Below, piece by piece: positions 9,001 through 37,347 of a stretch of DNA of 39,528 nt. Origin of the DNA: Magnetococcales bacterium. Its GTDB lineage: Bacteria; Pseudomonadota; Magnetococcia; Magnetococcales; JADFWU01. A model generated the notes under the pieces. It searched no databases. It worked only from the letters and a program-made list of their open reading frames with translations, and was not told the origin of the DNA. Numbering within the stretch: the stretch's first letter is position 1; every line of letters starts with the position of its first letter. The stretch is taken from positions 1-39,528 of the forward strand of contig JADFWU010000029.1 in the NCBI GenBank assembly GCA_015234045.1, read 5' to 3'. Made by a program: the position numbers and the translations under genes.

Positions 9001-12000
9001 ACTGTTCTGCCTGCTCAGGATGCCCATTCAGGTTCACTGACCCTCTCAGGCACACCCAGTGCTGGTGAGACACTGACTGTGGACAGTACTGCTTTTGTTG
9101 AACCGGATGGTCTCGGTGATTTCAGCTATCAGTGGCAGCGTCTGGAAGGTGTTGGTGACGCTGGTGTCTGGACAGATATCTCAGGCGAAACAACGGCGAG
9201 TTATGTCGCCCAGAATAGCGATATCGGCACGATGGTCCGGGCTGTTGTTGACTATGTGGACGATGGTGGCACGGTGGAATCAGTGACCAGTTCGCCCTCT
9301 TCAACGGTTACTGTAGCCAATTTGGTAGGTACATCAGGTGCCGACACACTGACAGCCACCATATACCATTCGAATATCAGTGGGTTGGATGGCGATGATA
9401 CGCTGACCGGTGGCACAGGAAATGACACGCTGGATGGCGGTGCGGGAAATGATCTGCTCAGTGCTGGGGCAGGGGATGACACGCTGATCTATGACAGTGC
9501 GGATACCACGACCATTGATGGTGGCGCTGGCAGTGATACGCTGCAATTGACGGTTGATACGGCTTCTCTCCATTTGACCAATGTTGCCAATAGTGTCTTG
9601 AACGGCATTGAAATCATCGAAATGGTGGGCGGAAATCACGCGCTGAGTTTTGATGCTTTAGATGTTACGAGCTTGTCTGAATCCACTGATCAGCTGTTTG
9701 TTACGGGTAGCAGCACAGATACGCTTTCATTGTTGGATACCGATAATGGCAGCTGGAATGACGATGGTATCGTGGAGGTAGATAGTGTCGCTTGGAATAA
9801 ATACAGCTCAGGAACAGCCACGGTTCTGGTGGATACCGATATTACAGCCACTGTCGATACCTTAAGCCCAAGCCTCTATTTCGAACAGATCAACCCGACG
9901 TTTACTGATTTACGCGCCCATTTTGCATTGGATGGAAATGCAACAGACAGCACGGGTAATGGCTATGATGGCGTGCTCAGTTCAGTAGCCGTCTCTACCA
10001 CTACAGATCGTTTCGGTAATGCCGCATCTGCCTATACGTTTACTACAGCGGATGAGTACATTGATATTCCCAAAACCGTAGCTGATTTCGATCTGAACGA
10101 TTTTGCTATTTCCATGTGGTACAAGTCGGGCAGTCATGCTGCGGCTGGTGGTGCGCTCATGGTGATGGATTCTTCTGATCCGTACACCGGTCCTACGGTC
10201 TATTTTGGCTATCCTGGTTCAAACGATACCATGCAATTCCGTATTGATTACGATGATGCAGTCAATTGGACTAATCAAAAGGTTGCTGATAGTCAGTGGC
10301 ATCATGGCGTGTTCCAACGGGCTGGTAATCAGCTTGAAATCTATGTGGATGGTGAACAGGTTGCTACCAACACGGTATCGGCCATTAATTTGGATACTAC
10401 GGTTTACGATAGCGATTTCCGTCTTGGTGCCCATGCAATAGATCAGTCTATCCAGGAGTACTATGGCAGTCTGGATGAGCTTTCTTTCTACACGCGTGCG
10501 TTAACAGCGAATGAGATTAGCACAACATATAGCGGTCAGGTTCAAACCGGGGAGGATGTCACCTTCCTGAAAGGCAGTGGTGCTGTTTCCCTGCTTCAGG
10601 GTGTGGTGCTGACCAATCATGCTGTAACAAATTGGGATGGTGGTGTGGTTACCGCAGCGGTGAGCAGTAATGGCACGGCCAATGATCAACTGACAATCAA
10701 TGATCAAGGCACGGGTGCTGGACAGATCAATATTTCTGGTAGTGATCTTTATTACGGTTCCACGGCGATTGGTACATTCAGCGGTGGTGTGGATGGTGCG
10801 GCGTTGACCGTGAGTCTGAACAGTGCAGCCAGCACGGATGCAGTTCAAGCATTGATGCACAACATTGCCTTTGCGAACGATGCGACAACGCCCAGCGTGT
10901 TGACCCGAACGGTGACAGTTCAGGCAACCAATAATCTCGGCAATGCTGCATCGGTGACTCAGGATGTATTAATTGAGGTAAATACACTACCTACGGCCAG
11001 TGATAACACCATCACAGCCATAGAGAATACCAGTCAAACCATTGCGCTGTCTGATCTTGGGTTTAACGATGCGGATGGCGATGCGTTGGATCACATTGAG
11101 ATTATCTCGACCATCGGTTCCGGTACGTTGAGAGTCGGTTCTACCCTCATCAATGCTGGTGATTCTATCTCACTGGCAGAGATCAACAGCAATAGTTTTA
11201 CCTTTACGCCTGATCCAGGCACCAGTGGTAATGGATATGGTGCGTTTGCGTTCAAGGTGCATGACGGAACGGCGCTGAGTACGTCAGCCAATACGATCAA
11301 TTTTAATGTGGATCTGGTGGGTGCCAGCAATCTGAATGCACGCTATACATTTGATGGTACAGCCCTGGATAGCAGTGGCAATGGTCACAGTGGCACATTC
11401 TATTCTGGAATAACCCAGGTTGCTGACCGTTTTGGTAATGCGAATAGCGCCATCAGCTTTGATGGTACGACAAACGGATTGGTTAAACTGGATCATGCGG
11501 CAATGAATGGTCTAACGGATTTTACTGTCAGTTTTTGGGCTAAGTTTACAGATACCGGATCGACCAAACATTTTATGAGTGGTGCAACTACGAGTAATTT
11601 CAATGCGTTTTTGCCGATCCATGATGCCGGAGTCATCAGGATGCTGTTCAGCGGTGGTTCATTCACATTCGGATCAGATTTGAATGATGGTGGATGGCAT
11701 GCATTACACTTTGTTCGTACTGGTGCATCAATCAAATTCTATGCAGATGGTAGTTTCCAGTCAGAATGGACAACAGCGTCTACATCAGCGCTAACCATTG
11801 CTCCTAATGGATTATGGCTCGGTGGTGATCAGGACTCGCTTGGTGGTGGATTCGCAACCAATCAGCAATATACTGGTCAGATGGATGAAGTTCGTATTTA
11901 TAATCGTGCATTAAGCGCTACCGAAGTGGCCAATACGGTATCAATGCCAATGGCCGCTGATCCGATTGTATTTGATCTCAATGGTGATGGCATTAATCTG

Positions 12001-12900
12001 GTTTCAACCGAGGGGTTGGACAACGATTTCGACATGGTGCCGGAGAATGCCATGCGTGCCAAAGTATGGGCAGGGCCAGATGATGGTTATTTGGTTATGG
12101 ATAAAGATGGTGATGGCCAGATCAATGATATCACCGAAATGCTTTCTGAATTCTTTACCGCTGGTCACGATAGTGGACTCTCAGCTTTGAGCACGTTGGA
12201 TGATAACGGTGATCAAGTGATCAATGCCGGAGATGGTGCGTTTGATAGTCTGATGATCTGGCAGGATTTGGACAGTGATGGCGTTACTGATCCTGGTGAG
12301 TTGAAGCCATTGAACGCACATGGTATTGAATCCATTAATCTGGATGCGGAAACAGTCAATTTTACCGTTGACGGAGCAACAGTGCTTTCGGAAGGCAGTT
12401 TTGTATACTCCAGTGGTGTTGACGGACAGTTTGCAGAGTTGGATATCCATATTGTTGGGGATGCTGAAACCGGTAGCTCTCAAGTGGATATCACCACAGA
12501 TGCAGTCGCACCTCTGGCTGGACTTGATGTGTCAACGGAAACGCTGGCGCAGCAGGTTATCTTGGTGGATGAACAGAGTGCGGCTGAGGCAATTAATCTC
12601 ACCAATCCGCTGGTGGATAGCGTTCTTCTGCCCACCGATATTGAAGCACTGCCTATGGACAATGCCGTTGAGCCGATTGATCATACTACGCTGGATATTG
12701 AAGAGATTTTCAATGGTTCTGATGGGTTGGATGTGGTTCTACAGACTGAATCAGAGGAATATAGTAGTGAGACTTTGGTTCTCAGCGATATCAATACAGT
12801 CGATACAGAGGTGAATGATGTATCGATAATGGTAGCAGAAACAATCAGCTTGTCTGCACTGTTGCCGGATGAAGAGTGGCATCCACATGTTGATGTATAG
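1..12900 (+). CDS. Giant modular secreted RTX/LamG/FG-GAP protein (5' end outside window)
   Basis: The frame is open from the first base to TAG at 12898-12900, about 4300 codons. A GTG at 4 lies inside a repeat domain and is not a credible start, so the gene begins upstream. Residues counted from base 4: two He_PIG/cadherin-like repeats (about 35-175), an Ig-like domain with YQW (190-270), a cadherin-like/Big_9 domain (280-375), FG-GAP propeller units (about 635-1175) interrupted by a discoidin domain (about 690-825), eight LamG-like domains (nt about 4000-4660, 4720-5330, 5380-5990, 6050-6640, 7385-8040, 8065-8690, 9905-10540, 11335-11945), a short RTX block of GGxGxD-type nonapeptides (3125-3165), and an EF-hand-like domain (3989-4115) with DLNGDGINL, DKDGDGQIND and DLDSDGVTDPGEL. 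RTX repeats plus this C-terminal domain are typical of type I secretion substrates. Adhesion or polysaccharide binding is inferred. No secretion genes are in the window. Confidence 0.9.
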   Translation: MVDDGATEDAAYSWSVPSAAFDDDDLIHGDSLSYTASTPSWLTFNTTTNTLSGTPVNAEVGDHTVIITATDEQDTSVTDTFVVTVANTNDAPTVSGVLTFADATEDSAYSMTLPVDLFDDVDVGDTLTITVSAPSWLGFNATTGVLSGTPLNANVGTETITVTATDTGGAAISVQADLTSINTNDLPTGAVVIDGQLREGYDLTANTGAVQDDDGLGTLGYQWYRSTNDGVDWSVITGATNSIYQLGVDDPGALIKVTVSYTDLRLTAETISAESATTVNYAPTAVDDAIVVQNGISTTLLNLLNNDSDLDGDSISITGKDSTSAQGGMVTYHEGGGLVYTPASGFIGTDSFGYTITDSEGDTSSATVTVDVDTPPESGVGAGDLYAVATNNQQLVTLGGTDAESDSLSFLITALPSNGTLYQTSDGTTLGDVIDAADTTVTDGQFRLIFVPDTDWNGTTTLEYKAHDGKLLSLDTATASITVTPNFAPVMTSDTASATWQVHALDPDPTGVAVQTLLTSGLVTDQDSDVMGIAVTGADVTNGYWEFSTDGGSSWNVLSDVSTSAATLLAEDAQVRFQADDTYAGSVTLSFQAWDQSDGLASGTENIDVSNGDAYSAFSSGSTTVTANVEVGLFGDQLAKLTASTGDVSDLLGSDVDISGSVIIAGAPDYDSTATAFGGSVSLVSQNKPVTASGYYGNMDYFHPSGITDGNLTDEYYAIWETNNGQTGWVTIDLGQEYLISQLKVMNSDNRHHGDRGTRDFRIEIWGESTSATTVVDNTLSDPRGLTTHPFYTYNVTPIAGQYVKFYVDSYYGSSAALNEIQAYGQSQVTVANLTGAVYLYEMDDSGSWSETEALVPSAAEAGDDIGQAVAVSGDVALISATGDDDQGSNAGAAYLYTKQTDGSWTQTTKLTASDGSAGESFGNALDVDGTTAVVGAVSANTTGAVYLFEKASETSWTESEIVAPSDLIASDQFGYAVALDGTRMIVSAPGQDGADDTPSAGAAYIFEQQENGSWSQVAKLVADVLINGDGLGYRVALSGGLAVLTTPSGDANGTDKGAAYVFERLSDGSWDQTAILADPDASGIGFGDDVAIKGNTIIVSDSRDDTGGADKGSIYFFEKGSSGWTYVATQQASDGVAADLFGGAIAVDGDQLVVGATGDDDNGSNSGSIYVHALNSAYNDTPILSGSMLVVAGSTNGSETILVSTLVDGLISDVDSPDVGIAVTGLNSGSGEGVWQYSIDGANWLSFNTISESSATLLDADDTTAIRFVAVDNDATDVSITVRAWDGSDGLDNGSTGVDIAGTGGTSPFSTATLTTSVNMVPDLTVSTNVAQSVMQFDGVDDYIAIPDSDSLDLTGSFSLEFWVNPDTLTGNQGLIAQDQLLSNNGAFVVWLDGANLKMALRNDGSQSTLVANTGASLSIGSWAHIAIVFDDSADTLTFYQNGVQLGDPVSYTDEVFDSTAPIVLGNRDTGAEYNVPLEGKLDTVRIWGDARTSDEIAESFQQEAPISNDNLLAHYDFESITGDQVLDRSGNANTATLGSDTVDDAAQPVALNNHLDQVVHFSPVIPVTNLSAIRFADSEFLKTSVTVTGSFSAETWFYREGQNLWDVLMSQSGDQNSFHVSYNASNQLVMNIQGETFTQDISSFDADNATMMDEWYHLAVTYDAPNNHGIVYLNGQEVINETHATSLVQTNTFYIGNDDWNSGGDGFNGLLDDFRLWDDVRTPEEVVAGYANSTPINPDNLILSYDFESASSGQILDQSGNGNHGILGSSTASDGADPKLFNYRPTVSNQYAMRIDSGDYINTNYTLTGADFTIESWFYRDETFDYDVLAASSGNTQFWVGFNPSQKIGLSLAGSHVYFDPTSSNPANPSLMDSWHHWALSYDASAKTGTFYLDGQSLFTNTHTNAISLNDNLLLGNDLWDSSDDNFQGLMDDVRVWSDVRTATEIADSYYQNTPTNIDNQVLSYDFETVSNGQVLDQSGNNQSGTLGASTAVDAADTVLTTLTGIEKPNLNQAVIATVMPSVQVDNMSLEGWFRWDGVDTGTNMNLLQVGTTLSNGYNLYAARQSSGVYHLSAGRPGVETLLTTDYALVADTWVHVALERDSGTWKIFADGVALSATGGNTTGAPTVPTGGFYIGNDSEQTVTFSGDIADVRFWSDIRTESELQSTMEQTLTGSEANLVGYWKLDEGSGSSVTDSAGSANGSLNGATSWTDSGQPDAPSISTNSVTLDEDATLVGTIEVVDSEGDAFTLSVQSDVTNGTLTLNTSTGGWSYLPDSEFSGTDSFTVRVSQGDFISDQQVNLTIQSVNDAPQLSGTLPTVIGSTAGTQTMLVADLISGLASDVETTDPGVAVTGLDNGTGGGVWQFTTNGTDWTDFSTISESAATLLSADSTTAVRFVSSGGSAGDASITVRAWDGSDGSANGTTDVAVDSTGERSPFSDTALTSSVNMAPVLTASTDYTQSVAQFDSVNDYITIPGSSDMVVNGDFTMEFWVNPDRLTGTTQAILSQDQFAISNGAFAVWINETGNFILTLRELGYGEALSYHSDANLTIGQWDHIAVAFDDAANTVTVYQNGIQVGTPASYTGDIFDSTADILIGNRDTGSDLNMPFDGQLDEVRIWGDVRSASEILSSYQTQLTGAEDNLLVHYDFNSVDNGVVTNSVVDGIDGQLGTAVVGDSAEPMMVNTLGGALRFDGNGDYVTLGSVSTVPTAFTVEAIVKLDQNTTLWSRFLELGNGPSSDNILFSLYENTGKAVLNVRIGSAVQGEVVSADVLPLNTWVHVTAVAYGDGSGRIYFDGVEQGYVSSGMNIRNIARSTNAIAHSSWTVDPDLDGDIAEVRLWGKALTQDEINSNLHAPLSGSESGLQHYWNMNEGSGTVVTDQAGSVDGTLVGGSTWIDTNVDLPMPEITQSETLFTAEDSPLTGTIQAVDDEGDSVRLSLQADAANGSVSFNATTGAWSYTPDANFNGTDSFTIRTTQNEPVGQDAVVVTEVLTADEVITLTVLPAQDAHSGSLTLSGTPSAGETLTVDSTAFVEPDGLGDFSYQWQRLEGVGDAGVWTDISGETTASYVAQNSDIGTMVRAVVDYVDDGGTVESVTSSPSSTVTVANLVGTSGADTLTATIYHSNISGLDGDDTLTGGTGNDTLDGGAGNDLLSAGAGDDTLIYDSADTTTIDGGAGSDTLQLTVDTASLHLTNVANSVLNGIEIIEMVGGNHALSFDALDVTSLSESTDQLFVTGSSTDTLSLLDTDNGSWNDDGIVEVDSVAWNKYSSGTATVLVDTDITATVDTLSPSLYFEQINPTFTDLRAHFALDGNATDSTGNGYDGVLSSVAVSTTTDRFGNAASAYTFTTADEYIDIPKTVADFDLNDFAISMWYKSGSHAAAGGALMVMDSSDPYTGPTVYFGYPGSNDTMQFRIDYDDAVNWTNQKVADSQWHHGVFQRAGNQLEIYVDGEQVATNTVSAINLDTTVYDSDFRLGAHAIDQSIQEYYGSLDELSFYTRALTANEISTTYSGQVQTGEDVTFLKGSGAVSLLQGVVLTNHAVTNWDGGVVTAAVSSNGTANDQLTINDQGTGAGQINISGSDLYYGSTAIGTFSGGVDGAALTVSLNSAASTDAVQALMHNIAFANDATTPSVLTRTVTVQATNNLGNAASVTQDVLIEVNTLPTASDNTITAIENTSQTIALSDLGFNDADGDALDHIEIISTIGSGTLRVGSTLINAGDSISLAEINSNSFTFTPDPGTSGNGYGAFAFKVHDGTALSTSANTINFNVDLVGASNLNARYTFDGTALDSSGNGHSGTFYSGITQVADRFGNANSAISFDGTTNGLVKLDHAAMNGLTDFTVSFWAKFTDTGSTKHFMSGATTSNFNAFLPIHDAGVIRMLFSGGSFTFGSDLNDGGWHALHFVRTGASIKFYADGSFQSEWTTASTSALTIAPNGLWLGGDQDSLGGGFATNQQYTGQMDEVRIYNRALSATEVANTVSMPMAADPIVFDLNGDGINLVSTEGLDNDFDMVPENAMRAKVWAGPDDGYLVMDKDGDGQINDITEMLSEFFTAGHDSGLSALSTLDDNGDQVINAGDGAFDSLMIWQDLDSDGVTDPGELKPLNAHGIESINLDAETVNFTVDGATVLSEGSFVYSSGVDGQFAELDIHIVGDAETGSSQVDITTDAVAPLAGLDVSTETLAQQVILVDEQSAAEAINLTNPLVDSVLLPTDIEALPMDNAVEPIDHTTLDIEEIFNGSDGLDVVLQTESEEYSSETLVLSDINTVDTEVNDVSIMVAETISLSALLPDEEWHPHVDV
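2053..2490 (+). other. Discoidin (F5/8 type C) domain inserted into an FG-GAP unit
   Basis: This part of the giant protein encodes a galactose-binding-like fold: KPVTASGYYG, GITDGN, a WVTIDLGQ core strand, ISQLKV, FRIEIWG and a closing LNEIQAYG. The flanks read as the two halves of a single FG-GAP unit: VIIAGAPDYDS before it and TGAVYLYEMDDSGSW after it. The DNA looks more A+T-rich than the neighbouring repeats. The boundaries are approximate. The fold assignment comes from motif resemblance. Confidence 0.7.
3553..4494 (+). repeat. Intragenic long repeat, copy A (about 314 codons)
   Basis: Copy A comprises a cadherin/Ig-like domain followed by a LamG domain. It runs from LSGSMLVVAGS to RIWGDARTSDEI and is recognisably duplicated at 6940-7887. 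Shared landmarks in order are DPGVAVTGL/DVGIAVTGL, GVWQ, ISES-ATLL, ITVRAWDGSDG, SPFS, LT-SVNM-P, MEFWVNPD/LEFWVNPD and GNRDTG. A third, more diverged copy of only the first half lies at about 1470-1890. Confidence 0.8.
6940..7887 (+). repeat. Intragenic long repeat, copy B (about 316 codons)
   Basis: Copy B is the partner of 3553-4494 in the same reading frame, with the same domain order and closely similar protein sequence. The nearly equal length indicates duplication of a two-domain unit within the gene rather than independent recruitment. Confidence 0.8.
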
Positions 12901-22117: not shown

Positions 22118-22525
22118 ATGACTCAACACAGCACAATTTTATTGGTAGAAGATGATCCTGCCGCAGTACAAATTGCACTGCATGCCTTTACAAAAAGTGG
22201 TGTCAAAAAAGAGCAAATTTCAGTTGCTAGAAATGGACAAGAAGCCTTGGACCTGCTCTTTAAAACTGATGCCTCAGAATCTCATAAGCCAAGTTTAGTT
22301 CTTCTAGATCTGAAACTGCCCAAGATTGATGGGTTGGAAGTGCTCAAAGAGATCCGGGAAACAGAGGCAACCAAAGACATCCCAGTCATCATACTGACCA
22401 ATTCTGATGAAGAACGCGATGTCACTCAAGGGTATGATCTGGGCGCAAACAGCTATCTCAGAAAACCCGTTGATTATCTGCAACTTATTGAGCTGTTAAT
22501 TCAGCTTGGTCTTATTCCAGAATAG
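22118..22525 (+). CDS. Single-domain response regulator, Rcp1-like
   Basis: A 135-residue stand-alone receiver. It has LLVEDDPAAVQIALHAF, phospho-acceptor D64 in LLDLKLPKIDG, the T/S switch in VIILTNSDEE and K in YLRKPVD. The VEDDPAD-like start and the KLPKIDGLEVL form are typical of Rcp1, the partner of phytochrome-like kinases, which matches the kinase type encoded just upstream. The ATG at 22118 has AGGTGA seven bases before it; an upstream in-frame ATG at 22076 has no comparable site. The last 14 bases overlap the 3' end of the convergent CheB-CheR gene. It has no output domain, so it probably acts by protein binding or as a phosphate shuttle. Confidence 0.92.
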   Translation: MTQHSTILLVEDDPAAVQIALHAFTKSGVKKEQISVARNGQEALDLLFKTDASESHKPSLVLLDLKLPKIDGLEVLKEIRETEATKDIPVIILTNSDEERDVTQGYDLGANSYLRKPVDYLQLIELLIQLGLIPE

Positions 22526-25500
22526 GCTCTTTAGTATTTTCACTTTCGGCAACCGAAGGTATGACTGCTGTTTGAATTGCTAGTTTTCCTTGCCAGTTCA
22601 CGACTCGGGATGATGCCAGTAACTTAATGGTTTCTCCACTTTTATTCATTCCCTGGCCATTTTGAATGGTGGGGGCATGTCCAGATCCAAAAAGTCTTGA
22701 TTTCGCAAATCCATTCTGATGCTCTGACAAAGGCAGAAGCTTGTTGACGCTATTCATTTGTGTGATCTCATCTGGAGAGGTGTATCCGAAAAATCGCGCA
22801 AATGCATGGTTACAATACACAGGCTGACCTTTTCGATGAATAACCACCCCTTGGATTCCTGATTCTGCTAACGTCCGATATCTTTCTCGTGAATCGTCTA
22901 AATCTTTGCGTGCTGCTTGCAGTTCTGTCACATCCTCAAATATCAGTAAATATCCGTCAGTGGATTCACCTTCTTCATCGCGTCTGGCTTCCATCAGCAT
23001 CCGGAAGACACGATATCCAACACCCGGTAAGGTATGCTCCACTTCAAATTCCAGTGACAAACCTTTTCTGACATCATCTATCCCTGGTTTCAAACGATCA
23101 TAGATCTTTTTCCCAAACGCAGTAAATAATCTTGCACCCAGAAGCTTTTTGTTTTGTCCAAACCACTCCGACATTTTTCTATTTAGATTAAGGATACGCT
23201 GATCAGTGCCAATAAGCGCGACACCCATTGGAAGGGAGTTTGAGACCAATTGATGCAGTCTTTCATTGTAGGATAGTTCCTGACGAATATTTCGAATCTC
23301 GGTTTGGTCTATGATAACGATAACCGCACCTTCAACTCTATCTTCCATGGTGTGGTAAGGAACAATTCTGAACCAGAGAGCCAACCTATCCGTTAAAATT
23401 TCTTCCTGATGCTCTTTTCCAGAACTAATAACGCGACTAATTTTATTCTTCAGATTCACAATATTGACGTGAGAGGGGATAGACGTAAGGATCTCTCCAA
23501 TATCTTCCGAAGCAAGACCAAAAAATTTGACGGCTGCTGGCGAAAACCGTTTTACTCGTAGTTTGGGATCTACAATGATAATAGAGTAACCAATATTTTT
23601 CTGCATATTTTCAAGGTCAGAGTTTGCCACCATCAACTCTGAGGTACGTGTTTGCAGTTCTTCGTTAACAGTGGTCAGTTCTTCATTTGTGGATTGAAGT
23701 TCTTCGTTGGATGTTTCCAGTTCTTCATTTGTGGACTGCATTTCCTCATTTGAGGCTTGTAGCTCTTCATTCAAAGCTTGCAACTCTTCGTTGGATGTTT
23801 CCAGTTCTTCGATAACAGTCTGCAAATGTTCTTTGGTAGCGACTAACTCTTGTTCAAGCTCAGGAATCCTTGAGACATCCCCTTCAATAACACTGTCAGA
23901 GACCCCTGTATCATTTATTTTAGGGATTTCGAACTCTTCGAAACCAATAAGGTAAAGACTGCTCGACTGAGAGACGCGGGTAGCGGGATGAAGCCCCATA
24001 CGAACGCCTTTCTTTATATTTCCAACAGTGATCGGTTTAACAGAGCTAACAGCAGATTCTCCTGATTTTTTTACTTTGGAAAACAGAGCCCAAAACTCAC
24101 CGCGCAATTCAGGAATAAGCATACGAGTGACGTTTAAGTCTCCTTTTCCAGAACTGAGCACCATATACCCAGTGATATCTCCATTGATCTGATAAACAGA
24201 GCCATCATCTCCTACGATCATGCTCTTTGGTGCGTATATCCGCATGATCGTGGTCCGCATGGCCTCTTCCACACTGACCTTTTTCTGTTCAGTCGTTTTT
24301 TGTACGCCAGACCAGGTTTGTCGGGGGCGCTCCATCAGTGAACGTCGCCCAAAACGGTCACCTACCCCAATTTTCTTCTGATATATTCGGTGTTTAGCAT
24401 CAACCGTAGAAAAAACATCAGCGCTCTGACCCAGGGCTTCTGACTTGCCAAGAAATAGATAACCGCTTGAAGATAATGAAAAATGAAAAGAAGCGAAAAC
24501 ACGCCCCTGAAGTTCCTGATTGAAATATATCATGACATTTCGGCAACTGATTAAATCAACCCGTACAAAAGGAGGGTCCTTTGCTAAATCTTGACGCGCG
24601 AATACCACTAATTCTCGAATTTCTTTGGAGATATAGAATTTGTCCCCTTTTTTGGAGAAATATCGTTCGACATATGCAGACGGCATTTCCCTTAGAGACG
24701 ACTCTAGATATATACCCTTACGTGCTCTTTCCAGCGCATCCATGTCGATGTCAGTTGCAAAAATCTGTATATTAAAACTGCCTAATTTCAGGCCCAGTGC
24801 TTCCGATAATAATATAGCCAAAGAGTAGGGCTCTTCTCCCGTTGCACAACCGGGTGTCCATATGCGAATTTCATCTCCAGGCTCTTTATTGTGAAGCGCT
24901 TCTTTCAAGGCGTTACCAATAGCAGAAAAAGCCTCTCTGTCCCGGAAAAAACCGGTGACTGAAATAAGAATATCCTTGGCTAAACTGTCTGCTTCCGAAG
25001 GATTTTCCCGCAAGAACAATATATAATCAGAAAGATCATGCGTCCCAGTGGCATTGATGCGGCGCTCAATACGACGACACAAGGTTGTCTGTTTATACTT
25101 GGAAAAATCAATGTCGGTCCGCTTCCTGATCAGGACAAAAATTTCGTCCAGCCCGGACAAACCAGATTGTTCATCAGCGATGAGTTCCAGTACTTTCCCT
25201 GGAGCCATCACAATATCAAGGAGATTGAGGCCAATTCTGTCTGGGGAAAGGATCAGATCAACGAGATTTGTCTCAATGGCCGCTAACGGCATGCCATTGT
25301 ATTTGGCTGTTTCAGGATCTTGTACAATGGTAAAACCGCCATGCGCCTTGATCGCACGCATGCCTAAAGCCCCGTCCGAACCCGTACCTGAAAGAATAAC
25401 GCCTACGGCGTGTTCTCCTTGATCTTCTGCTAAAGCTGAAAAGAAATTATCAATGGACGGTTTCGGTCCGACTGGGCTGGTGGGTGGCTTGAGAAAAAGT

Positions 25501-25859
25501 ATTCCGCCTTTGATGTCCGAATCATGATTGGGTGGCGTAATATGAATGGTGCCGGCAATTACTGGTGTCTTATGTTTGATTTCTACCACTGGCAGATTGG
25601 TTTCCCGCGCCAATAATTCCACCATCATGCTGCGATATTTAGGTGCCATATGTTGTAAAACAACATAACCCATGGCCGCATTGACAGGGAGTTTTGCAAC
25701 CAATATTCGTAAAGCCTCTAATCCACCCGCAGAAGCCCCAATTCCTACCACAAATATTTTTTTATTGTTTTCAGAAGTCTTTTTCCCAGCTTTTTTGGTG
25801 TCTGAATCTATTTTGGGAGTAGTTGAAGGCTTGTCTTTTTTGCTTTTGCCGGTTGCCAT
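22512..25859 (-). CDS. CheB-CheR-PAS fusion (methylesterase/methyltransferase sensor protein)
   Basis: A 1115-residue fusion of chemotaxis-type adaptation enzymes. After a Lys-rich leader, a CheB methylesterase domain (about 35-215) has the catalytic set S43 (GASAGG), H70 (LQHM) and D162 (GTGSDGA) but no N-terminal receiver. A CheR methyltransferase domain (about 230-490) has IWTPGCATGEEPYS for S-adenosylmethionine and a CRNVMIYF motif. A long coiled-coil (about 665-755) is built from near-repeats of EELQ/STNEEL, followed by about three PAS domains. Many relatives continue into a histidine kinase; this one stops after the last PAS at ILE-stop. Its methyl-accepting substrate is unknown, since no MCP lies in the window. 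It is transcribed divergently from the hybrid kinase at 26026 and converges with the receiver gene. Confidence 0.94.
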   Translation of the reverse strand: MATGKSKKDKPSTTPKIDSDTKKAGKKTSENNKKIFVVGIGASAGGLEALRILVAKLPVNAAMGYVVLQHMAPKYRSMMVELLARETNLPVVEIKHKTPVIAGTIHITPPNHDSDIKGGILFLKPPTSPVGPKPSIDNFFSALAEDQGEHAVGVILSGTGSDGALGMRAIKAHGGFTIVQDPETAKYNGMPLAAIETNLVDLILSPDRIGLNLLDIVMAPGKVLELIADEQSGLSGLDEIFVLIRKRTDIDFSKYKQTTLCRRIERRINATGTHDLSDYILFLRENPSEADSLAKDILISVTGFFRDREAFSAIGNALKEALHNKEPGDEIRIWTPGCATGEEPYSLAILLSEALGLKLGSFNIQIFATDIDMDALERARKGIYLESSLREMPSAYVERYFSKKGDKFYISKEIRELVVFARQDLAKDPPFVRVDLISCRNVMIYFNQELQGRVFASFHFSLSSSGYLFLGKSEALGQSADVFSTVDAKHRIYQKKIGVGDRFGRRSLMERPRQTWSGVQKTTEQKKVSVEEAMRTTIMRIYAPKSMIVGDDGSVYQINGDITGYMVLSSGKGDLNVTRMLIPELRGEFWALFSKVKKSGESAVSSVKPITVGNIKKGVRMGLHPATRVSQSSSLYLIGFEEFEIPKINDTGVSDSVIEGDVSRIPELEQELVATKEHLQTVIEELETSNEELQALNEELQASNEEMQSTNEELETSNEELQSTNEELTTVNEELQTRTSELMVANSDLENMQKNIGYSIIIVDPKLRVKRFSPAAVKFFGLASEDIGEILTSIPSHVNIVNLKNKISRVISSGKEHQEEILTDRLALWFRIVPYHTMEDRVEGAVIVIIDQTEIRNIRQELSYNERLHQLVSNSLPMGVALIGTDQRILNLNRKMSEWFGQNKKLLGARLFTAFGKKIYDRLKPGIDDVRKGLSLEFEVEHTLPGVGYRVFRMLMEARRDEEGESTDGYLLIFEDVTELQAARKDLDDSRERYRTLAESGIQGVVIHRKGQPVYCNHAFARFFGYTSPDEITQMNSVNKLLPLSEHQNGFAKSRLFGSGHAPTIQNGQGMNKSGETIKLLASSRVVNWQGKLAIQTAVIPSVAESENTKEPILE

Positions 25860-28831: not shown

Positions 28832-29065
28832 CTACAAACAGTCAGAGTGGCTGTTATCGCACCAGGGAAGGGAGCCGCTTTTTCCACAGCCACATACTTC
28901 CAGTGTGTCATCGCTGTTTGGTGTGAAAGAAAAAGGCTCAATATGGGACTGGTGGGAACAGTCGCATAGGGGTGGGGTGTCGGTATTGCCACAGGTGCAA
29001 ATATCCATGGTCACACCCTTACTGGCTTTGATAGGAAAAGGGCAGTCACGATTGAATCCACTCAT
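28832..29065 (-). CDS. Small double-CDGSH iron-sulfur protein
   Basis: A 77-residue protein with two CDGSH-type [2Fe-2S] motifs of the three-Cys one-His kind. Predicted ligands are C23, C25, C34 and H38 (CTCGNTDTPPLCDCSH), and C58, C60, C69 and H73 (CGCGKSGSLPWCDNSH). Both keep the C-x-C-x2-S/T-x3-P-x-C-D-x-S-H spacing. Both replace the Gly of CDG, with Cys in the first and Asn in the second. Two motifs in a short chain match the bacterial and Miner2-like monomeric class; the role is probably electron transfer or cluster transfer. The start is the ATG at 29065, with GAGGA about nine bases upstream, rather than an upstream in-frame ATG at 29122. It is divergent from the LuxR-type gene. Confidence 0.88.
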   Translation of the reverse strand: MSGFNRDCPFPIKASKGVTMDICTCGNTDTPPLCDCSHQSHIEPFSFTPNSDDTLEVCGCGKSGSLPWCDNSHSDCL

Positions 29066-29195
29066 ACTATGTATCCTCGGGTAAATAAAAATAGGGCACC
29101 TGATGACGGTAATTCCTGCCAAAGTCTATGAGGCGACTATGGGCGTAAAGATAGCGCGTCCAGATGAAAATGAAAACCATGCTAGTGTGGGGGTA

Positions 29196-29204
29196 TGGTA
29201 TAAA
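29196..29204 (+). promoter_or_regulatory. Extended -10 promoter before the LuxR-type gene
   Basis: TGGTATAAA fits the extended -10 form TGnTATAAT; no good -35 is seen. Transcription would start near 29211, giving a leader of about 80 bases. This lies downstream of an in-frame ATG at 29164 and so favours the start at 29293. Confidence 0.5.
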
Positions 29205-29292
29205 TAGGCGTAGGTGCGTGTTTTGCAAAAATATGATGCGTCTGAAAAAAATACCTGTGCCTGTGTTTTTTAAGTTTACTGGAGCTGGTTTT

Positions 29293-30033
29293 ATGAATGT
29301 GGCTGAACAGATCGAAAAGATCCAACAGCTTGGTACACCGGAAGCTTTTCAGAAATACCTGGCAGAGCTTGGCGGTGCGTATGGTTTCAATAACGTGGCC
29401 TATACGCTTAAATTGCCAGACACAATGGAAAACGCCCATCAAGTCGTGATGGTCAATAACCTGCCCGATACATTCGTTGACCGATATGCAAATCTTCATT
29501 TGGAAGTGTGTCCACGCTTTAAAAGCCTTTGGGGTGCAACTACGCCGTTGATCTACGATATGAAAGCGCATCATGAGGTAGAAGAGTGGCGAAAAACGGG
29601 ATCAAAAAAATTATTGTCCCTTATTTCAGATTGGCATGATTTTGACTTTTACGGTGCAGGGTTTAGTTTTCCATTCCATGGGGCTCATGGTGAGATTGCT
29701 GTTTTTACTTTTCTATCCAATTCGATAGATCAAACGTTTATTGATACACATGTCTATCGTATGTTCCCACTGTTTCACATTCTAACGCCCTTTTTACATG
29801 AACGCTATTTAGCTGTTTCTGGGTGTATGCATGTGCGTAATATCAAGTTGACACCACGGGAGAAAGAGTGTCTGCGTTGGGCGGCTGAAGGAAAGTCATC
29901 CTGGGAGATAGGCATGATTCTGACCATCTCTGAGCGCACGGCAATCAACCATTTACAAAATGCTGGTCGCAAACTTCAAGCGACCAACAGGGTGCAGGCT
30001 GTGGCCAGAGCTGTGCTCTATAAGCTGATTTAA
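29293..30033 (+). CDS. LuxR-type regulator with atypical autoinducer-binding domain
   Basis: A 246-residue transcription factor. Residues about 10-165 look like an autoinducer-binding domain. Residues about 185-243 are a LuxR/FixJ HTH: TPREKECLRWAAEGKSSWEI, ISERTAINHL and a final K-L-Q-A-TNR-QAVARA, very typical of quorum-sensing LuxR proteins. In the ligand region, my alignment puts F61, Y65, C73 and P74 where LasR/TraR have W, Y, D and P. The Trp and the Asp that contacts the acyl-homoserine lactone amide are therefore not conserved. No luxI-type synthase is present. The ATG at 29293 is supported by GGAG eight bases upstream and by the extended -10 within the longer frame. Probably a LuxR solo sensing another ligand, which is inference. 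Confidence 0.88.
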   Translation: MNVAEQIEKIQQLGTPEAFQKYLAELGGAYGFNNVAYTLKLPDTMENAHQVVMVNNLPDTFVDRYANLHLEVCPRFKSLWGATTPLIYDMKAHHEVEEWRKTGSKKLLSLISDWHDFDFYGAGFSFPFHGAHGEIAVFTFLSNSIDQTFIDTHVYRMFPLFHILTPFLHERYLAVSGCMHVRNIKLTPREKECLRWAAEGKSSWEIGMILTISERTAINHLQNAGRKLQATNRVQAVARAVLYKLI

Positions 30034-30728: not shown

Positions 30729-31076
30729 TCATAGATGGATGACATGACCCATCGACATGTTTAACAAGTCGTCTACATGATGGACTGACCAATCAACATG
30801 GATTTTGAAGTCATAATGTACTTTGGCTTTTTTGTGTGTTTCATGGGCTTGGATGGTGCAGTTAAGATGCTTGGGAATCTCCAAACCCATCATACTATCT
30901 GACCGGATTTTTCCTTCGATGCTCTCTGCCAGTGCGCGGAGAAAAGCCGCTGTTTGTTCGGGCGTTTTGGGTCCATCATGACGAAAGTGGGTGCCGGATA
31001 TCTCTGGTAGACCATGCTTGTCTGTCACCGGTGCAATGCCTAACCGAGTCAGGATGGTTGAGATCAATTTTAGCAT
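30729..31076 (-). CDS. Small protein of unknown function
   Basis: A 115-residue protein I do not recognise. It starts MLKLISTILTRLGIAPV, contains a PKTPEQTAAFLRALAESIEGKI helical stretch and ends in a His-rich part (VHYDFKIHVDWSVHHVDDLL). No clear signal peptide or transmembrane helix is seen. The start at 31076 is chosen because GGGAGGG lies five bases before this ATG. The frame is open further back to an ATG at 31172, which has no ribosome binding site. It follows the membrane-anchored gene at 31222-32208 by 145 bases on the same strand and may be the last gene of that transcription unit. Confidence 0.6.
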   Translation of the reverse strand: MLKLISTILTRLGIAPVTDKHGLPEISGTHFRHDGPKTPEQTAAFLRALAESIEGKIRSDSMMGLEIPKHLNCTIQAHETHKKAKVHYDFKIHVDWSVHHVDDLLNMSMGHVIHL

Positions 31077-31221
31077 GGTGCCCTCCCGATTCACTGTTGT
31101 GGTGAAATCAGATAATCCTTCCTGACGTTCATGAAATGGGCGATCTCTTACTTTGTTTCCCATTTCATCCATCTATATATTTGATCCCATGCAGCAAGGA
31201 CAGTTCCGACATGTATGGAAT

Positions 31222-32208
31222 TTATCCAATAAATCCGCTGGAGCTTCGGTAGGAGCGGGCCGCTTTTGAAGAGGCGAAACGGGATGATCTGGTTTTGCCA
31301 TTGGCTGAAGTGGTTTTAAGTGATGGGGATTCATTACGCAGACGCCACGCTGTTGAACGGCTGTCCATGGCGGCCAGTTTGGCACCGTAGCCCGGGCGTG
31401 TTTTGGCCGTTGAAAAATATTTGGTGCGTTGTCGGGAGACGTTGTTGATGCTGTTGCCAAAGCGGGTGCCATGCCGATTGGCCATATCTTGTTCGTACAT
31501 GTTGTTACGGCGGATCTGAGTGATAAAGTTGGCCGATGAACGATACTTTCTGCGTTTATAGTGATGGCTTTCGAACAGATCATCATCCATGGCCATGAAT
31601 AATATAAAGTCACCATCCACATACTCTTCCCGATAGTTCATAGCTGCTTCAGCCATGGATTCCCGTCTGAGAAAATAGTGCTCGGGTAGATAAATCGGCT
31701 GGTTGTCTGGATGAGGATAGGGCTGGTTTACTTTAAAAAGGCTATTGGTGCCCATGCCGGTGAGTTGAAGCAATGCGGGTACTTCACTGCCTTGTTCGGT
31801 TTGAAACAGATTCAGCAGGAAGAGAGGGTCATCCTGCGGGTCACAGCTGACTTGATTTCTATTCAGGTCTTCACAGCCTTGAATCGTGACGTGTCTTTCC
31901 TGGATCTGTGTGCTGAGTAGAACCAGTTGATCGCCTTCAAAGATCTCATTAACCTTCCAATAGAATGTTTCCAGATCATCGGATTGATTAAAGGCTTCTT
32001 GAACGGATTCGAGATTGATAAAACCCATGGTGCCAGGAGCCTCAAGCCATTGAGCCATAGCGACTTCTTCAGGATCGGGTTTGTCATCTTCAAAAAAACC
32101 AAGGCCGATAATAATGATGACAATGCCGAAAAACAGCTGTCCCAATGCTTTAATGCAAAAGCTGACTGCTTTGAATAATCCATTCAGCAGAGTGTTTGAA
32201 TCGGACAT
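31222..32208 (-). CDS. Membrane-anchored protein of unknown function
   Basis: A 328-residue protein without a family I can name. A hydrophobic helix at about 20-40 (ALGQLFFGIVIIIIGLGFF) anchors it with a short N-terminal tail. It is followed by an acidic segment (EDDKPDPEE), a mixed globular region with two Cys (in QGCEDLNRNQVSCDPQ) that could form a disulfide, and a C-terminal 80 residues rich in Ser, Arg, Lys and Thr ending RSYRSSSGFIG. The start at 32208 has CAGGTAA about six bases upstream. It lies 84 bases after the DUF350-like gene on the same strand, so the two are probably cotranscribed and may act together in the envelope. A different frame is open across its 3' end (see findings). 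Confidence 0.75.
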   Translation of the reverse strand: MSDSNTLLNGLFKAVSFCIKALGQLFFGIVIIIIGLGFFEDDKPDPEEVAMAQWLEAPGTMGFINLESVQEAFNQSDDLETFYWKVNEIFEGDQLVLLSTQIQERHVTIQGCEDLNRNQVSCDPQDDPLFLLNLFQTEQGSEVPALLQLTGMGTNSLFKVNQPYPHPDNQPIYLPEHYFLRRESMAEAAMNYREEYVDGDFILFMAMDDDLFESHHYKRRKYRSSANFITQIRRNNMYEQDMANRHGTRFGNSINNVSRQRTKYFSTAKTRPGYGAKLAAMDSRSTAWRLRNESPSLKTTSANGKTRSSRFASSKAARSYRSSSGFIG

Positions 32209-32292: not shown

Positions 32293-33162
32293 TTAAAAGC
32301 TCCAAACAATCATGATTGCAACTGAAATTGCCAAAGTCGCTTTAATAAGGCCGACCCCCACATTTTGTTGACCGACAATTTGATCCCGCAAACGCATGCC
32401 TGGAATAAAGAATCGATCCACCAGTTCACGAGCCAACGGAAGCAGAATGATGCCTGATAGTGCATAAAAGGAGAATATCTGCATTTGATTGAGCAGGGAC
32501 TCTGTGCCAAATGGATTCATTCGTGCCAATCCTGTTGACAGAATAAGGCTGTAAGCCACTAAATTACCACTCCAGGCAATACCAACCGCACTGTTTTTAT
32601 ATTTACTCAATTGGCCCATTTCATCATGTTTGGTCAGCCGACGATAGACCATGGAAAATGCCACAAGGCCGACCTGTCCGAGCACAAAGGCCAGGCCAAA
32701 AGAAGCGGCAGAGAAGCTACCGGAAATACCGCCCGCGATGATCAGTCCCGATCCGACAAATGAGCCAGCCAATACATTGGCAACACCGATATTGCTGTGA
32801 TCAATCAACTCTCTGGTAATCGAAAAACGATGCAGAATAAACTTATCATTCACCCATCCAGCGATCACCAAGGCAGCCATGCCCATGCTGGCATAGAGCA
32901 GTACAGAGGGCAGTTCATGGATAAATCGGAAAACAGAAGGCGGTTCTGGTGCAGGGCCGCCGGTAAAAACACCGGCAATGACCGAGATGAAACCGCCAAG
33001 GTAGCCAGCCAATACGATGCCAACAGCGGTACTGCTGTTAGTCGTGAGTTGGTCGCGTATGGCATATGGAGTAGCCAGATCATAGATAAAACGGGCGATA
33101 AAGAGCAGGATCAGAGCGGCGATAAAATAGCAAAGACTGTACAGGATCGTGCTGACTTCCAT
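32293..33162 (-). CDS. DUF350-family multi-pass inner-membrane protein
   Basis: A 289-residue hydrophobic protein with about seven or eight predicted helices. Three internal units share one pattern, a helix ending in A-x(3)-D followed by a polar loop and a glycine-rich helix: ARFIYDLATPYAIRDQLTTN..VGIVLAGYLGG, AGWVNDKF...ITRELIDHSNIGVANVLAGS and ARELVDRF...LRDQIVGQQNVGVGLIKAT. This resembles tandem DUF350 (YjfL/UPF0719) units. The family has no established biochemical role; it is often found with stress-related membrane genes. GGGAG lies nine bases before the start. It heads the run of three minus-strand genes down to 30729. Confidence 0.85.
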   Translation of the reverse strand: MEVSTILYSLCYFIAALILLFIARFIYDLATPYAIRDQLTTNSSTAVGIVLAGYLGGFISVIAGVFTGGPAPEPPSVFRFIHELPSVLLYASMGMAALVIAGWVNDKFILHRFSITRELIDHSNIGVANVLAGSFVGSGLIIAGGISGSFSAASFGLAFVLGQVGLVAFSMVYRRLTKHDEMGQLSKYKNSAVGIAWSGNLVAYSLILSTGLARMNPFGTESLLNQMQIFSFYALSGIILLPLARELVDRFFIPGMRLRDQIVGQQNVGVGLIKATLAISVAIMIVWSF

Positions 33163-33249: not shown

Positions 33250-34647
33250 TTAAGCAGGAACAGAAGTGGATTGAGTAACGTCGGAAGAGACCAGCTGAAG
33301 GCGGCGCTGCACCAACCCAGGCAACGGTTGATAGACGATGGTAAACGAGCCGGTGTACCAAGGTGGTAGATGGGCGTGACGCAAATTGATCACGGCTTGG
33401 GAGAGGGAGTCTATCAGGGAAATAGTATCCAAAACGGTGTCTAATTCAGAGAGAGATAAAAAATGTGGTGCAGGCCAACCAGCTTGTTGAGCAAGAGCGG
33501 CGTAGTGGGTCTGGTAGGCCGCAGAGCGACTGCCGCCCCAATCGGGAAAAAGGCCGATGTGGTGTTGGTTGTTGATCAATAGACCCAATTTTTGAGTGAT
33601 GACCAGATCCCAGGTCACATCTGGTGTTTGGAACTCAGAGAGCAGTAACAGCGCATCACCAACAGGTTCATCCAGCGGGGTGAGTTGAAGGGTCTCATGT
33701 CGGTAGGCCATACGGGCAAACAGACCCTGTTCCATAAAGGGTGCAGCATCGTCTCTGTTGAGAAATACCAAAGGGGCATTGCCGCCGGTGACATCCACTA
33801 ACCACTGTTCATCGTGCAGTGGAATTAACAGAATATGGTGTTCGATCCAGGGAGGAGTGCGGTTACGATGGCGTATCCAATCATCCAGTTGGTGATCAAT
33901 ATCGTCATCCAGCGGGTGTTTACTGCCAGCTACATGGATGGGTTTGATGTCTAGAATATGACAGATAAATAGAAGGGCAGCGGTTTTTTCCGCGCAGATA
34001 CCACCATCGCCTTGATCCATCACCAGCCACATGGTCGCACCGTTGCGAAAAGGGGTGGAACCGTTGAGGCGCGAGATGTTTTCAAAGGGGGTTGCGTGTA
34101 TTGCCTGAGCGACACGAAACAGCAGCATATTCTGAGTGCTTGGGGTCAGACACTGTGCAAATGATTGGGTCAATTGTGAAAATGTGTCTATGCATTCACC
34201 GTTGCACGCTATAAATGGCCTTTTTTTCAGGTCAAGCATACGTGTGATGGCGGGATCAATCAGGGGACGACTGCTTTGGTAGAGTTGTTGGTGCCACTGC
34301 CGAAGGGTGTTGGCTTCTGGAAGTCCTGGTCCTTGTTGAGTATTGGGTATCAGTTCAAGGGTGGTGTGCTGTTGTGTCAGTGCAATGGTATCTGTATTGG
34401 TCAGTGGTTTTTCCTGACCATGCAGCTGAACAGGTGAGCGAAGGCACAGTTCTGGACTGTTCATGATTCTCAGTAGGCTTTGATAATGAAGCGCATTTTC
34501 TACCACGAGCGGAATGTGTGGCTCATGGGCGTGCAGAATCCACTCAACGGGAATGGATTTTAACTCTGTTTGTATCTCAAATGAAATACAGCTGTTGTTG
34601 CCCAGTGGATCACGAATATGGAGCGATTTTTTGGTGTTGCTATTCAT
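33250..34647 (-). CDS. Arylamine N-acetyltransferase-like protein with long N-terminal extension
   Basis: A 465-residue protein with a central NAT/transglutaminase-like cysteine core. PFENI at 187-191 and GGIC at 215-218 sit about as far apart as PFENL and the catalytic Cys in classical NATs. C218, H270 (EHHILLIP) and D285 (DEQWLVDVTGG) then give a Cys-His-Asp triad, with the same His-Asp spacing (15) as in NATs. Classical NATs are about 280 residues with PFEN near residue 40. Here 186 residues precede it, and the RRGGYC motif is DGGIC. Acetyl-CoA-dependent acyl transfer is therefore a hypothesis; a transglutaminase-like or protease activity is the main alternative. Its start overlaps the preceding unknown gene by eight bases, implying translational coupling within the nadB operon. 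Confidence 0.72.
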   Translation of the reverse strand: MNSNTKKSLHIRDPLGNNSCISFEIQTELKSIPVEWILHAHEPHIPLVVENALHYQSLLRIMNSPELCLRSPVQLHGQEKPLTNTDTIALTQQHTTLELIPNTQQGPGLPEANTLRQWHQQLYQSSRPLIDPAITRMLDLKKRPFIACNGECIDTFSQLTQSFAQCLTPSTQNMLLFRVAQAIHATPFENISRLNGSTPFRNGATMWLVMDQGDGGICAEKTAALLFICHILDIKPIHVAGSKHPLDDDIDHQLDDWIRHRNRTPPWIEHHILLIPLHDEQWLVDVTGGNAPLVFLNRDDAAPFMEQGLFARMAYRHETLQLTPLDEPVGDALLLLSEFQTPDVTWDLVITQKLGLLINNQHHIGLFPDWGGSRSAAYQTHYAALAQQAGWPAPHFLSLSELDTVLDTISLIDSLSQAVINLRHAHLPPWYTGSFTIVYQPLPGLVQRRLQLVSSDVTQSTSVPA

Positions 34648-35716
34648 GGCGGTAGTGGTTTCTGGCCTGTATGAGTTGGCGCAGAGGGTTGAGTGATTGA
34701 ATGGCTTCGGTAGTAAATCCAGTCATATAAGCCATGGGGCGGTAGAGGCGTTGGAACAGGCTGCCCTCTTCGAAATCTTGAATCCAGCGCTCAGAATGGA
34801 ACAGGGAATCAGCCTCTGCATCGAAGGAGAGCAGAAAAAGCCCGCGAATTGGGTCCATGCCGTCGTGTTCCATCATTTGTAACCGGATATCAAAGCCATT
34901 GGGTACGCCCAATGCCGGCGGATGGATAGAGACCGAACTGAGGGGTTCATAGTGATGAATGAGAGCGGGAATCTCATCGTGCCACAGGCGGTTAAACTGT
35001 TGTTGACCGTTTTCGGTGAGTTGCAAACCGGCTTGGACAGTGGTGGCTGGTTTGATCCAGTCTAATCCACGCATCTGTTCCAGAGTGGTAAATATATGCG
35101 GATAGGGCAGGGGATGTGTGAGGCTGTTTTGATAATCAATAAAGGGTTGAACGTTGCGTTGGTCCGGGTAATGTCCCAGCACGGAGAGCAGGAAAAGGAG
35201 GCCGTATTCTTGTCGTAATCCATTGAGTGTGGCTCTATCCAGCATGGTTGGCTGTAGTGAGAAAACCAGATCCACCAACCGATAATCAAAGGCACCGTTG
35301 TCTGTGGTGCAGGTGCTAAGACAGTTGCGTGCGGGTTGTTTCAGTGAAACAGCTTGGCCAGAAGGGTCTTTGTTAAGGAATATATCAAGAGTTAGGCGGC
35401 CACTTTGACTGGCTTGCCAGAAGTGAATCAACTCCTGTTGGACAAAGGGCAATTCCGGGTAGTTGGCCACATCCAGGCGAGATGCGTTATCTGGATTGAG
35501 GGCATGTTCGAGCAACACGGTTTCAATGGTGCAATCCAGCAGTGATTCTTGATCAAACGTAATATAGAACGCCTCTTCCAGCGGGGATTGATCCACGCTG
35601 ATACGCAGATCCCATTCTGTGTTCTCATAAAGAGGCAGGGTGTCTGGTTGAAATCGGGTTTGCGCACCGGGTAGCTCTTTATTAAAGCGCAAGGCATGTG
35701 GAAACGAGGTGGTCAT
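34640..35716 (-). CDS. Unknown protein coupled to nadB
   Basis: A 358-residue protein of no family I recognise. It looks soluble: no signal peptide or hydrophobic helix is evident. Notable parts are an N-terminal WDLRISVDQSPLEEAFYITFD segment, a Cys pair in NCLSTCTTDNG, a helical LRQEYGLLFLLSVLGHYPDQ and a conserved-looking GFDIRLQMMEHDGMDPIRG near the C-terminus. Its ATG overlaps the nadB stop as ATGA (35713-35716), and its own stop overlaps the start of the NAT-like gene by eight bases. The three are almost certainly translated from one message. A partner or substrate role for the NAT-like protein is inferred only from this coupling. Confidence 0.8.
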   Translation of the reverse strand: MTTSFPHALRFNKELPGAQTRFQPDTLPLYENTEWDLRISVDQSPLEEAFYITFDQESLLDCTIETVLLEHALNPDNASRLDVANYPELPFVQQELIHFWQASQSGRLTLDIFLNKDPSGQAVSLKQPARNCLSTCTTDNGAFDYRLVDLVFSLQPTMLDRATLNGLRQEYGLLFLLSVLGHYPDQRNVQPFIDYQNSLTHPLPYPHIFTTLEQMRGLDWIKPATTVQAGLQLTENGQQQFNRLWHDEIPALIHHYEPLSSVSIHPPALGVPNGFDIRLQMMEHDGMDPIRGLFLLSFDAEADSLFHSERWIQDFEEGSLFQRLYRPMAYMTGFTTEAIQSLNPLRQLIQARNHYRHE

Positions 35717-37347
35717 GGTGATGAAATGGGTAGAATCGTATCTTTATTACACGCTTCGTCCAGGTCTGGGTAGTTGGTGGTGTAGTGCAGTCCTCGGCTC
35801 TCTTTGCGATTCAGAGCGGAGCGAATGATCAATTCAGCGACTACGGCAATATTGCGGAGTTCCACCAAATCCTGCGTGATTTTACAATTCCAATAATATT
35901 GGTTGATCTCCTGGCGCAACATTTCAATGCGGCGTCTTGCGCGAGCCAAGCGGTGATCAGAGCGCACAATACCTACGTAGTTCCACATAAATCGCCGGAT
36001 TTCATCCCAATCATGGGAGATCAATACCGCCTCTTCACAGGGTGTGGTATCAAAGCTATCCCAAAGAGGGATGCTCTCCAGCGGTCTTTTTGGTGTTTCT
36101 TGTAGGTGGCGAACGATATCCTTATAGGCCGCTTCGGAGAATACCAGACACTCCAACAAGCTGTTGGAAGCCAGACGGCAGGCACCGTGTAAACCAGTAT
36201 GGGCTGTCTCTCCGATGGCATACAGGCCATGGATATCGGTTTTTGCAGAGAGATGGGTAACGATACCGCCACAGGTATAGTGTGCAGCGGGCACCACGGG
36301 AATAGGCTCCTTGGTCATGTCGATGCCCAGGGACGCGCATTTCTCAAAGATGGTTGGAAAGTGGGATTTTATGAATTCCGCACCTTTGTGCGTGATGTCG
36401 AGAAAAACGCAATCATCACCGGTACGTTTCATCTCAAAATCAATGGCGCGAGCGACGATATCGCGCGGGGCTAACTCTCCCCGAGGATCGTGGCGTTGCA
36501 TGAACGCTTCACCATTTGCCAAAATCAGGCGACCACCTTCACCGCGCACGGCCTCTGAAACCAGAAATGATTTGGCTTGAGGATGAAACAGGCAGGTGGG
36601 ATGAAACTGGATAAACTCCATGTTGGCAACACGACAGCCAGCCCGATAAGCCATGGCAATGCCATCTCCGGTGGCGATATCGGGGTTGGATGTGTACAGG
36701 TAGACTTTACCTGCGCCACCCGTGGCTAAAATGACAAACCGCGCTCGAAATGTGTTAACCTGGCCGGTCTTAATATCAAGAACATGACCACCCAGACAGC
36801 GATTTGGTTGGCCGGGCAGATATTGTCCTAATTTATGGGACGTAACCAGATCAATAGAGATCTGATTTTGAATGAGTTGAATGTCAGGGTGTTTTTTGAC
36901 TTGTTGGAGCAGTGTTTCCACAACAGTCTTGCCGGTAGCATCGGCGTTATGGATAACCCGGCGTGCTGAATGGCCGCCTTCACGGGTGAGGTGGTATGCC
37001 TCGTGGTTCTGTTCGTCTTTAGTGAATGAGACACCCAGGTCGATAAGGTGTTGAATGGCCTTTTGACCATTTTTGACCACGAAGCGAACGGTATCAGTAT
37101 TGCAAAGACCAACACCGGCTGTGTGTGTGTCCGCTTCATGGGATTTTCGCCGATCATCTGGATTTAATACAGCAGCGATTCCACCTTGTGCATAGCGGCT
37201 ATTGGACTCACAGGCTTCGGCTTTGCTCAGTAGTACAACGGAACCGTGCTCTGACAAACGCAGGGCTATATCCATCCCGGCCAGTCCAGCACCGATTACG
37301 AGAAAGTCTGAGAAATTTAATGGTTTTTCAGGATGATTCAGAATCAC
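35713..37347 (-). CDS. nadB: L-aspartate oxidase
   Basis: A flavoenzyme of 544 residues that oxidises L-aspartate to iminoaspartate, the first step of de novo NAD synthesis. It shows the FAD-binding VIGAGLAGMDIALRL near residue 17, SRYAQGGIAAVL, the family signature HLTREGGHSARRVIHNADATG, EFIQFHPTCL, PRDIVARAID, AAHYTCGGI and GETAHTGLHGACRLASNSLLE near the end of the FAD domain. A helical C-terminal domain follows, as in the succinate dehydrogenase/fumarate reductase flavoprotein superfamily. The length is normal. nadA and nadC are not in the window. The gene is divergent from rpoE, with 247 bases between them. Confidence 0.97.
   Translation of the reverse strand: MILNHPEKPLNFSDFLVIGAGLAGMDIALRLSEHGSVVLLSKAEACESNSRYAQGGIAAVLNPDDRRKSHEADTHTAGVGLCNTDTVRFVVKNGQKAIQHLIDLGVSFTKDEQNHEAYHLTREGGHSARRVIHNADATGKTVVETLLQQVKKHPDIQLIQNQISIDLVTSHKLGQYLPGQPNRCLGGHVLDIKTGQVNTFRARFVILATGGAGKVYLYTSNPDIATGDGIAMAYRAGCRVANMEFIQFHPTCLFHPQAKSFLVSEAVRGEGGRLILANGEAFMQRHDPRGELAPRDIVARAIDFEMKRTGDDCVFLDITHKGAEFIKSHFPTIFEKCASLGIDMTKEPIPVVPAAHYTCGGIVTHLSAKTDIHGLYAIGETAHTGLHGACRLASNSLLECLVFSEAAYKDIVRHLQETPKRPLESIPLWDSFDTTPCEEAVLISHDWDEIRRFMWNYVGIVRSDHRLARARRRIEMLRQEINQYYWNCKITQDLVELRNIAVVAELIIRSALNRKESRGLHYTTNYPDLDEACNKDTILPISSP

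Follow-up and report, generated by a model that had tools for sequence, protein, structure and literature searches.

A rare four-gene cassette joining a DUF350 membrane protein to a NAT-like protein, found downstream of nadB in a Magnetococcales bacterium

We analysed a 39,528-nucleotide stretch of DNA from a Magnetococcales bacterium (contig JADFWU010000029.1, hereafter 'the window'), in which nadB is followed by two overlapping genes, called here gene 2 and gene 3. Both belong to a larger and rare unit: a cassette comprising a tandem DUF350 membrane protein, a membrane-anchored protein with a Ser/Arg tail ('SR-tailed'), gene 2 and gene 3. All four genes co-occur in two genomes, the window's own (G000) and a second genome of the same order (G002; JADGBX010000186.1). 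The combination suggests a rare variant of a membrane-stress or amine-modification cassette, and nadB is probably its upstream neighbour rather than a part of the functional unit.

The genes of the locus are arranged as follows, in the order of transcription:

35713–37347, minus strand: nadB, L-aspartate oxidase (544 aa, GTG start; NF006567, E = 5.5e-251)
34640–35716, minus strand: gene 2 (358 aa; putative new family, no known domain; homologue in G002)
33250–34647, minus strand: gene 3, predicted NAT-like Cys-His-Asp protein (465 aa; C218, H270, D285; profile match)
32293–33162, minus strand: tandem DUF350 (YjfL-type) membrane protein, cassette member (PF03994, E = 2.9e-51)
31222–32208, minus strand: SR-tailed single-TM protein, cassette member (328 aa; homologues only in G002 and in a third genome, G005)

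The coordinates of the minus-strand trio of nadB, gene 2 and gene 3 were all confirmed, as were the overlaps of 4 and 8 bases described in the initial annotation (ATGA between nadB and gene 2, ATGAATAG between gene 2 and gene 3). No obvious Shine-Dalgarno sequence is found 5' of gene 2 or gene 3, which fits re-initiation past the upstream stop, and the three genes have similar GC3 values (0.50, 0.53 and 0.50, respectively). The initial annotation was right about the trio and ended the unit too early, leaving out the DUF350 and SR-tailed genes, which follow on the same strand with gaps of 87 nt (gene 3 to DUF350) and 84 nt (DUF350 to the SR-tailed gene). A weak amphi-Trp domain match lies on that strand at 30729–31172, 49 nt past the SR-tailed gene; it is not seen on the corresponding G002 contig.

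Several features elsewhere in the window were observed in passing. To the eye, the very long repetitive frame at positions 1–12900 (4,299 aa, open at the start of the window) looks like a giant surface adhesin of the RTX/cadherin type. A protein of 1115 aa (22512–25859), by eye a CheB/CheR-PAS fusion, lies amid several hybrid sensor kinases. A gene for a small CDGSH iron-sulphur zinc-finger protein (28832–29122) adjoins one for a LuxR-type protein with autoinducer-binding and GerE domains (29164–30033), and the window showed no evident luxI-like gene.

The overlaps had led to the proposal that genes 2 and 3 are tied to NAD-precursor or quinolinate supply, a link that did not survive comparison with other genomes. 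Of 48 Magnetococcales genomes, 40 have a nadB orthologue (at least 60% identity). We examined 29 other nadB loci, with as much as 1.5 kb of downstream sequence, and neither gene of the pair is present at any of them; a divergent rpoE adjoins nadB at 28 of those 29 loci. The pairing of genes 2 and 3 recurs in G002, as one would look for in a conserved gene pair, with nadB on one contig (C68) and the pair on another (C95). The expected neighbourhood therefore held as to the pair itself and failed as to nadB: the constant partners are the DUF350 and SR-tailed genes. Since 29 nadB loci lack the pair, its link to nadB appears particular to the window's genome. A true NAD-linked operon, in which genes 2 and 3 would modify or control the supply of iminoaspartate or quinolinate, is suggested by the two overlaps and the matching GC3 values; overlap by itself, however, speaks for co-expression rather than for a common pathway, and with the G002 pair away from nadB we regard such an operon as very improbable. 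Because the cassette lies directly downstream of nadB here, its expression in this genome would probably depend on nadB, through read-through and translational coupling, and it would not serve NAD synthesis.

The organization of the cassette in G002 supports the four-gene unit. The order on contig C95 is a divergent speA-like arginine decarboxylase gene, a TerD-TM gene, then the tandem DUF350, SR-tailed, gene 2 and gene 3 genes, with gene 3 beginning directly past the stop codon of gene 2. Two blocks (gene 2–gene 3 and DUF350–SR) are thus kept, and their order is swapped between G000 and G002. The DUF350 proteins of the two genomes form one clade (support 0.999), separate from the rest of the order's DUF350 proteins and distinct from those of the spermidine-synthase operons of relatives. 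The SR-tailed protein, which has one predicted TM segment (residues 21–39), is known from three genomes only (G000, G002 and G005), and the end of its tail is conserved in all three homologues. In G005 (contig C159, locus L019, 196–2809) a TerD-TM gene is followed by the SR-tailed gene on a 3.3-kb contig from which DUF350 and the gene 2–gene 3 pair are absent; the cassette may have been reduced or interrupted there.

Beyond these genomes the cassette is hard to find. Within the order, gene 2 occurs in just two of 48 genomes, G000 and G002. Extending the search to 398 sampled genomes of the phylum added no carrier of gene 2 or of the SR-tailed protein to those already known. No homologues of the cassette were found in viral contigs or in plasmids, nor in genome contigs beyond JADGBX, the last by a scan with two short peptide patterns that could miss remote relatives.

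Gene 2 had been described as lacking a recognizable family, and searches of Pfam, NCBIfam, PADLOC, PHROGs and the PDB agree, returning no convincing match. Its homologue on the G002 contig is 41% identical (E = 1.9e-76), and we conclude on sequence grounds that the two represent a new protein family. Residues ~210–245 (LQLTENGQQQFNRL) resemble the end of a winged helix by eye; Pfam gives nothing there, and we make no claim of it. AlphaFold2 models built from two sequences each reached a pLDDT of 38 for gene 2 and 34 for gene 3, and are unusable because there are too few homologues.

Gene 3 comprises an N-terminal extension (residues ~1–145), a NAT-like core (~170–293) and an unmatched C-terminal part (300–465). 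The motifs reported for it at NAT-like spacing are indeed present: PFEN at 187–190, GGICAE at 215–220 (containing C218), H270 and DEQWLVD at 279–285 (ending in D285). When gene 3, as a single sequence, was compared by hhalign with a profile of 15 genuine NATs gathered from genomes of the phylum, it scored 51.1 (E = 1.7e-6, probability 90%) over residues 180–292. Shuffled versions of gene 3 reached at most 21.9 (40 shuffles) and 24.7 (200 more), and the reversed sequence scored 12.7. In an hmmsearch with the same profile, gene 3 was the sole match among the 109 ORFs of the window (6.2e-6; next best 1.4). C218, H270 and D285 align, in order, with the NAT catalytic residues, as read in one sequence only. 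The alternative fold raised at the outset, transglutaminase, gave no match to PF01841 in Pfam, no hmmsearch match and an hhalign score (16.8) inside the shuffle range, so that the profiles side with NAT. Because the NAT profile match exceeds the shuffles with the motifs in register and the transglutaminase profile does not, we judge from the sequence that the core of gene 3 resembles the NATs.

Its divergence from that family (PF00797, which includes the amide synthases RifF and GdmF) is nonetheless considerable. Gene 3 shares PFEN, GG-x-C-x-E, the Cys-His-Asp triad and the His-Asp spacing of 15 with these enzymes, but at 465 aa it is much longer than the usual ~280, with an N-terminal extension of ~145 aa and with Cys and His set some 15 residues further apart. 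Of the VPFENL and RGGYC motifs of NATs it has PFEN and GG-x-C-x-E; the arginine of RGG is replaced by D (DGG), and the segment VDVTGG stands where NATs have VDVGFGG. The one Pfam match is a sub-threshold match to arylamine N-acetyltransferase (E = 0.013; 15.8 bits against a cut-off of 22.8), and a gene 3 fragment scored 19.2 bits, also under the cut-off. We therefore call the protein NAT-like rather than filing it as a NAT, given a score below the curated cut-off and the D for R in RGG-x-C. The G002 homologue is similar in its N-terminal part (33% over residues 112–178, E = 8e-8); its frame runs into the contig end after 199 codons, ahead of the NAT motifs, and the remainder was not found elsewhere in the G002 genome. 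A PF00797 match in G013 was considered as a second gene 3 and set aside, since it sits in a pilM-like gene.

The company of the DUF350 protein allows a comparison with known operons, in which DUF350 (YjfL) occurs with CesT/Tir-PspA and either a spermidine synthase or a glutathionylspermidine-synthetase-like ATP-grasp ligase (PMC11237479). The cassette shares with these a DUF350 membrane protein, in tandem form as in their spermidine-synthase group, a second membrane-anchored protein, cytosolic partner genes and a single enzyme gene, and likewise has a polyamine gene nearby (the speA-like gene of G002). It differs in its NAT-like enzyme, in its own DUF350 clade, and in a gene 2 product and SR-tailed protein unrelated to the partners tested: hhalign gave no match for gene 2, gene 3 or the SR-tailed protein as divergent forms of DUF4178, CesT, PspA, lipoprotein or DUF2617. 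No PspA, CesT/Tir, DUF4178, spermidine synthase or ATP-grasp ligase gene is found around the cassette in the window or on the G002 contig. Some DUF350 loci of relatives match the kinds described in that work: one in G023, with AdoMet decarboxylase, CesT/Tir, PspA, DUF4178, DUF350 and spermidine synthase, and one in G011 (L071, 4607–10044), which encodes DUF2617, a spermidine synthase and proteins of 576 and 139 aa without a Pfam match. There is also some likeness to TerD-linked stress systems, in that TerD-TM immediately adjoins the cassette in G002 and neighbours the SR-tailed gene in G005; no TerD was detected in the window's genome, however, and classic ter operon genes were not seen next to the cassette.

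By analogy with those operons, we put at about even the chance that this is a DUF350 membrane-stress cassette in which a NAT-like acyltransferase replaces the polyamine synthase or ligase. Following the NAT mechanism, C218, activated by H270 and D285, would be acylated by acyl-CoA or a similar thioester, and the acyl-enzyme would then hand its acyl group to an amine. The likeliest acceptor would be a polyamine, or some other amine connected with membrane stress, as the DUF350 operons suggest; the two grounds for naming a polyamine are DUF350's company elsewhere and the speA-like gene of G002. Gene 2 might be a cytosolic partner or regulator of gene 3, because the two genes are coupled and the coupling is kept in G002. 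The fuller reading, of an N-acyltransferase standing in for the spermidine synthase or glutathionylspermidine-type ligase of a DUF350 envelope-stress cassette and acylating a polyamine or similar amine with gene 2 as its helper, is bolder, and we hold it less likely than not. Both forms must contend with a pair known from two genomes only, a second gene 3 cut before its motifs, a missed Pfam NAT cut-off, the D at the RGG arginine, the VDVTGG segment, the lack of TerD in G000, and a gene 2 and SR-tailed protein unlike the classic DUF350-operon partners.

Two other readings of gene 3 were weighed. A Cys-His-Asp triad of this kind also serves amidases, cross-linkers and protein acyltransferases, and gene 3 could have kept the NAT-like fold for one of these activities, acting on the SR-tailed protein or on DUF350 instead of a small-molecule amine. 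Its N- and C-terminal extensions might then serve for docking, and the SR-rich tail, with its conserved end, as a protein substrate. PFEN and GG-x-C-x-E are, however, NAT marks, the transglutaminase profile does not match, and the SR-tailed protein of G005 accompanies TerD-TM with no gene 3 on the visible contig, so that we think this reading unlikely. Nor do we favour a catalytically dead NAT-like scaffold, with gene 2 as a regulator, in a cassette that senses and does not modify: the retention of all three triad residues and of the His-Asp spacing makes it quite unlikely, even though the RGG arginine and the GFGG segment are altered and gene 3 has diverged to below the Pfam cut-off.

Across bacteria, DUF350 operons are found repeatedly in company with polyamine enzymes. 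The cassette described here, genuine and rare, brings to these systems a NAT-like protein of divergent sequence, together with two new families (gene 2 and the SR-tailed protein), in a small four-gene unit that is open to testing. If the cassette's only recognizable enzyme is indeed a cysteine acyltransferase, it would point to the modification of amines, more than to the making of polyamines in itself, as the common theme of DUF350 operons, and NAT-like enzymes would reach beyond their stand-alone xenobiotic and amide-synthase roles.
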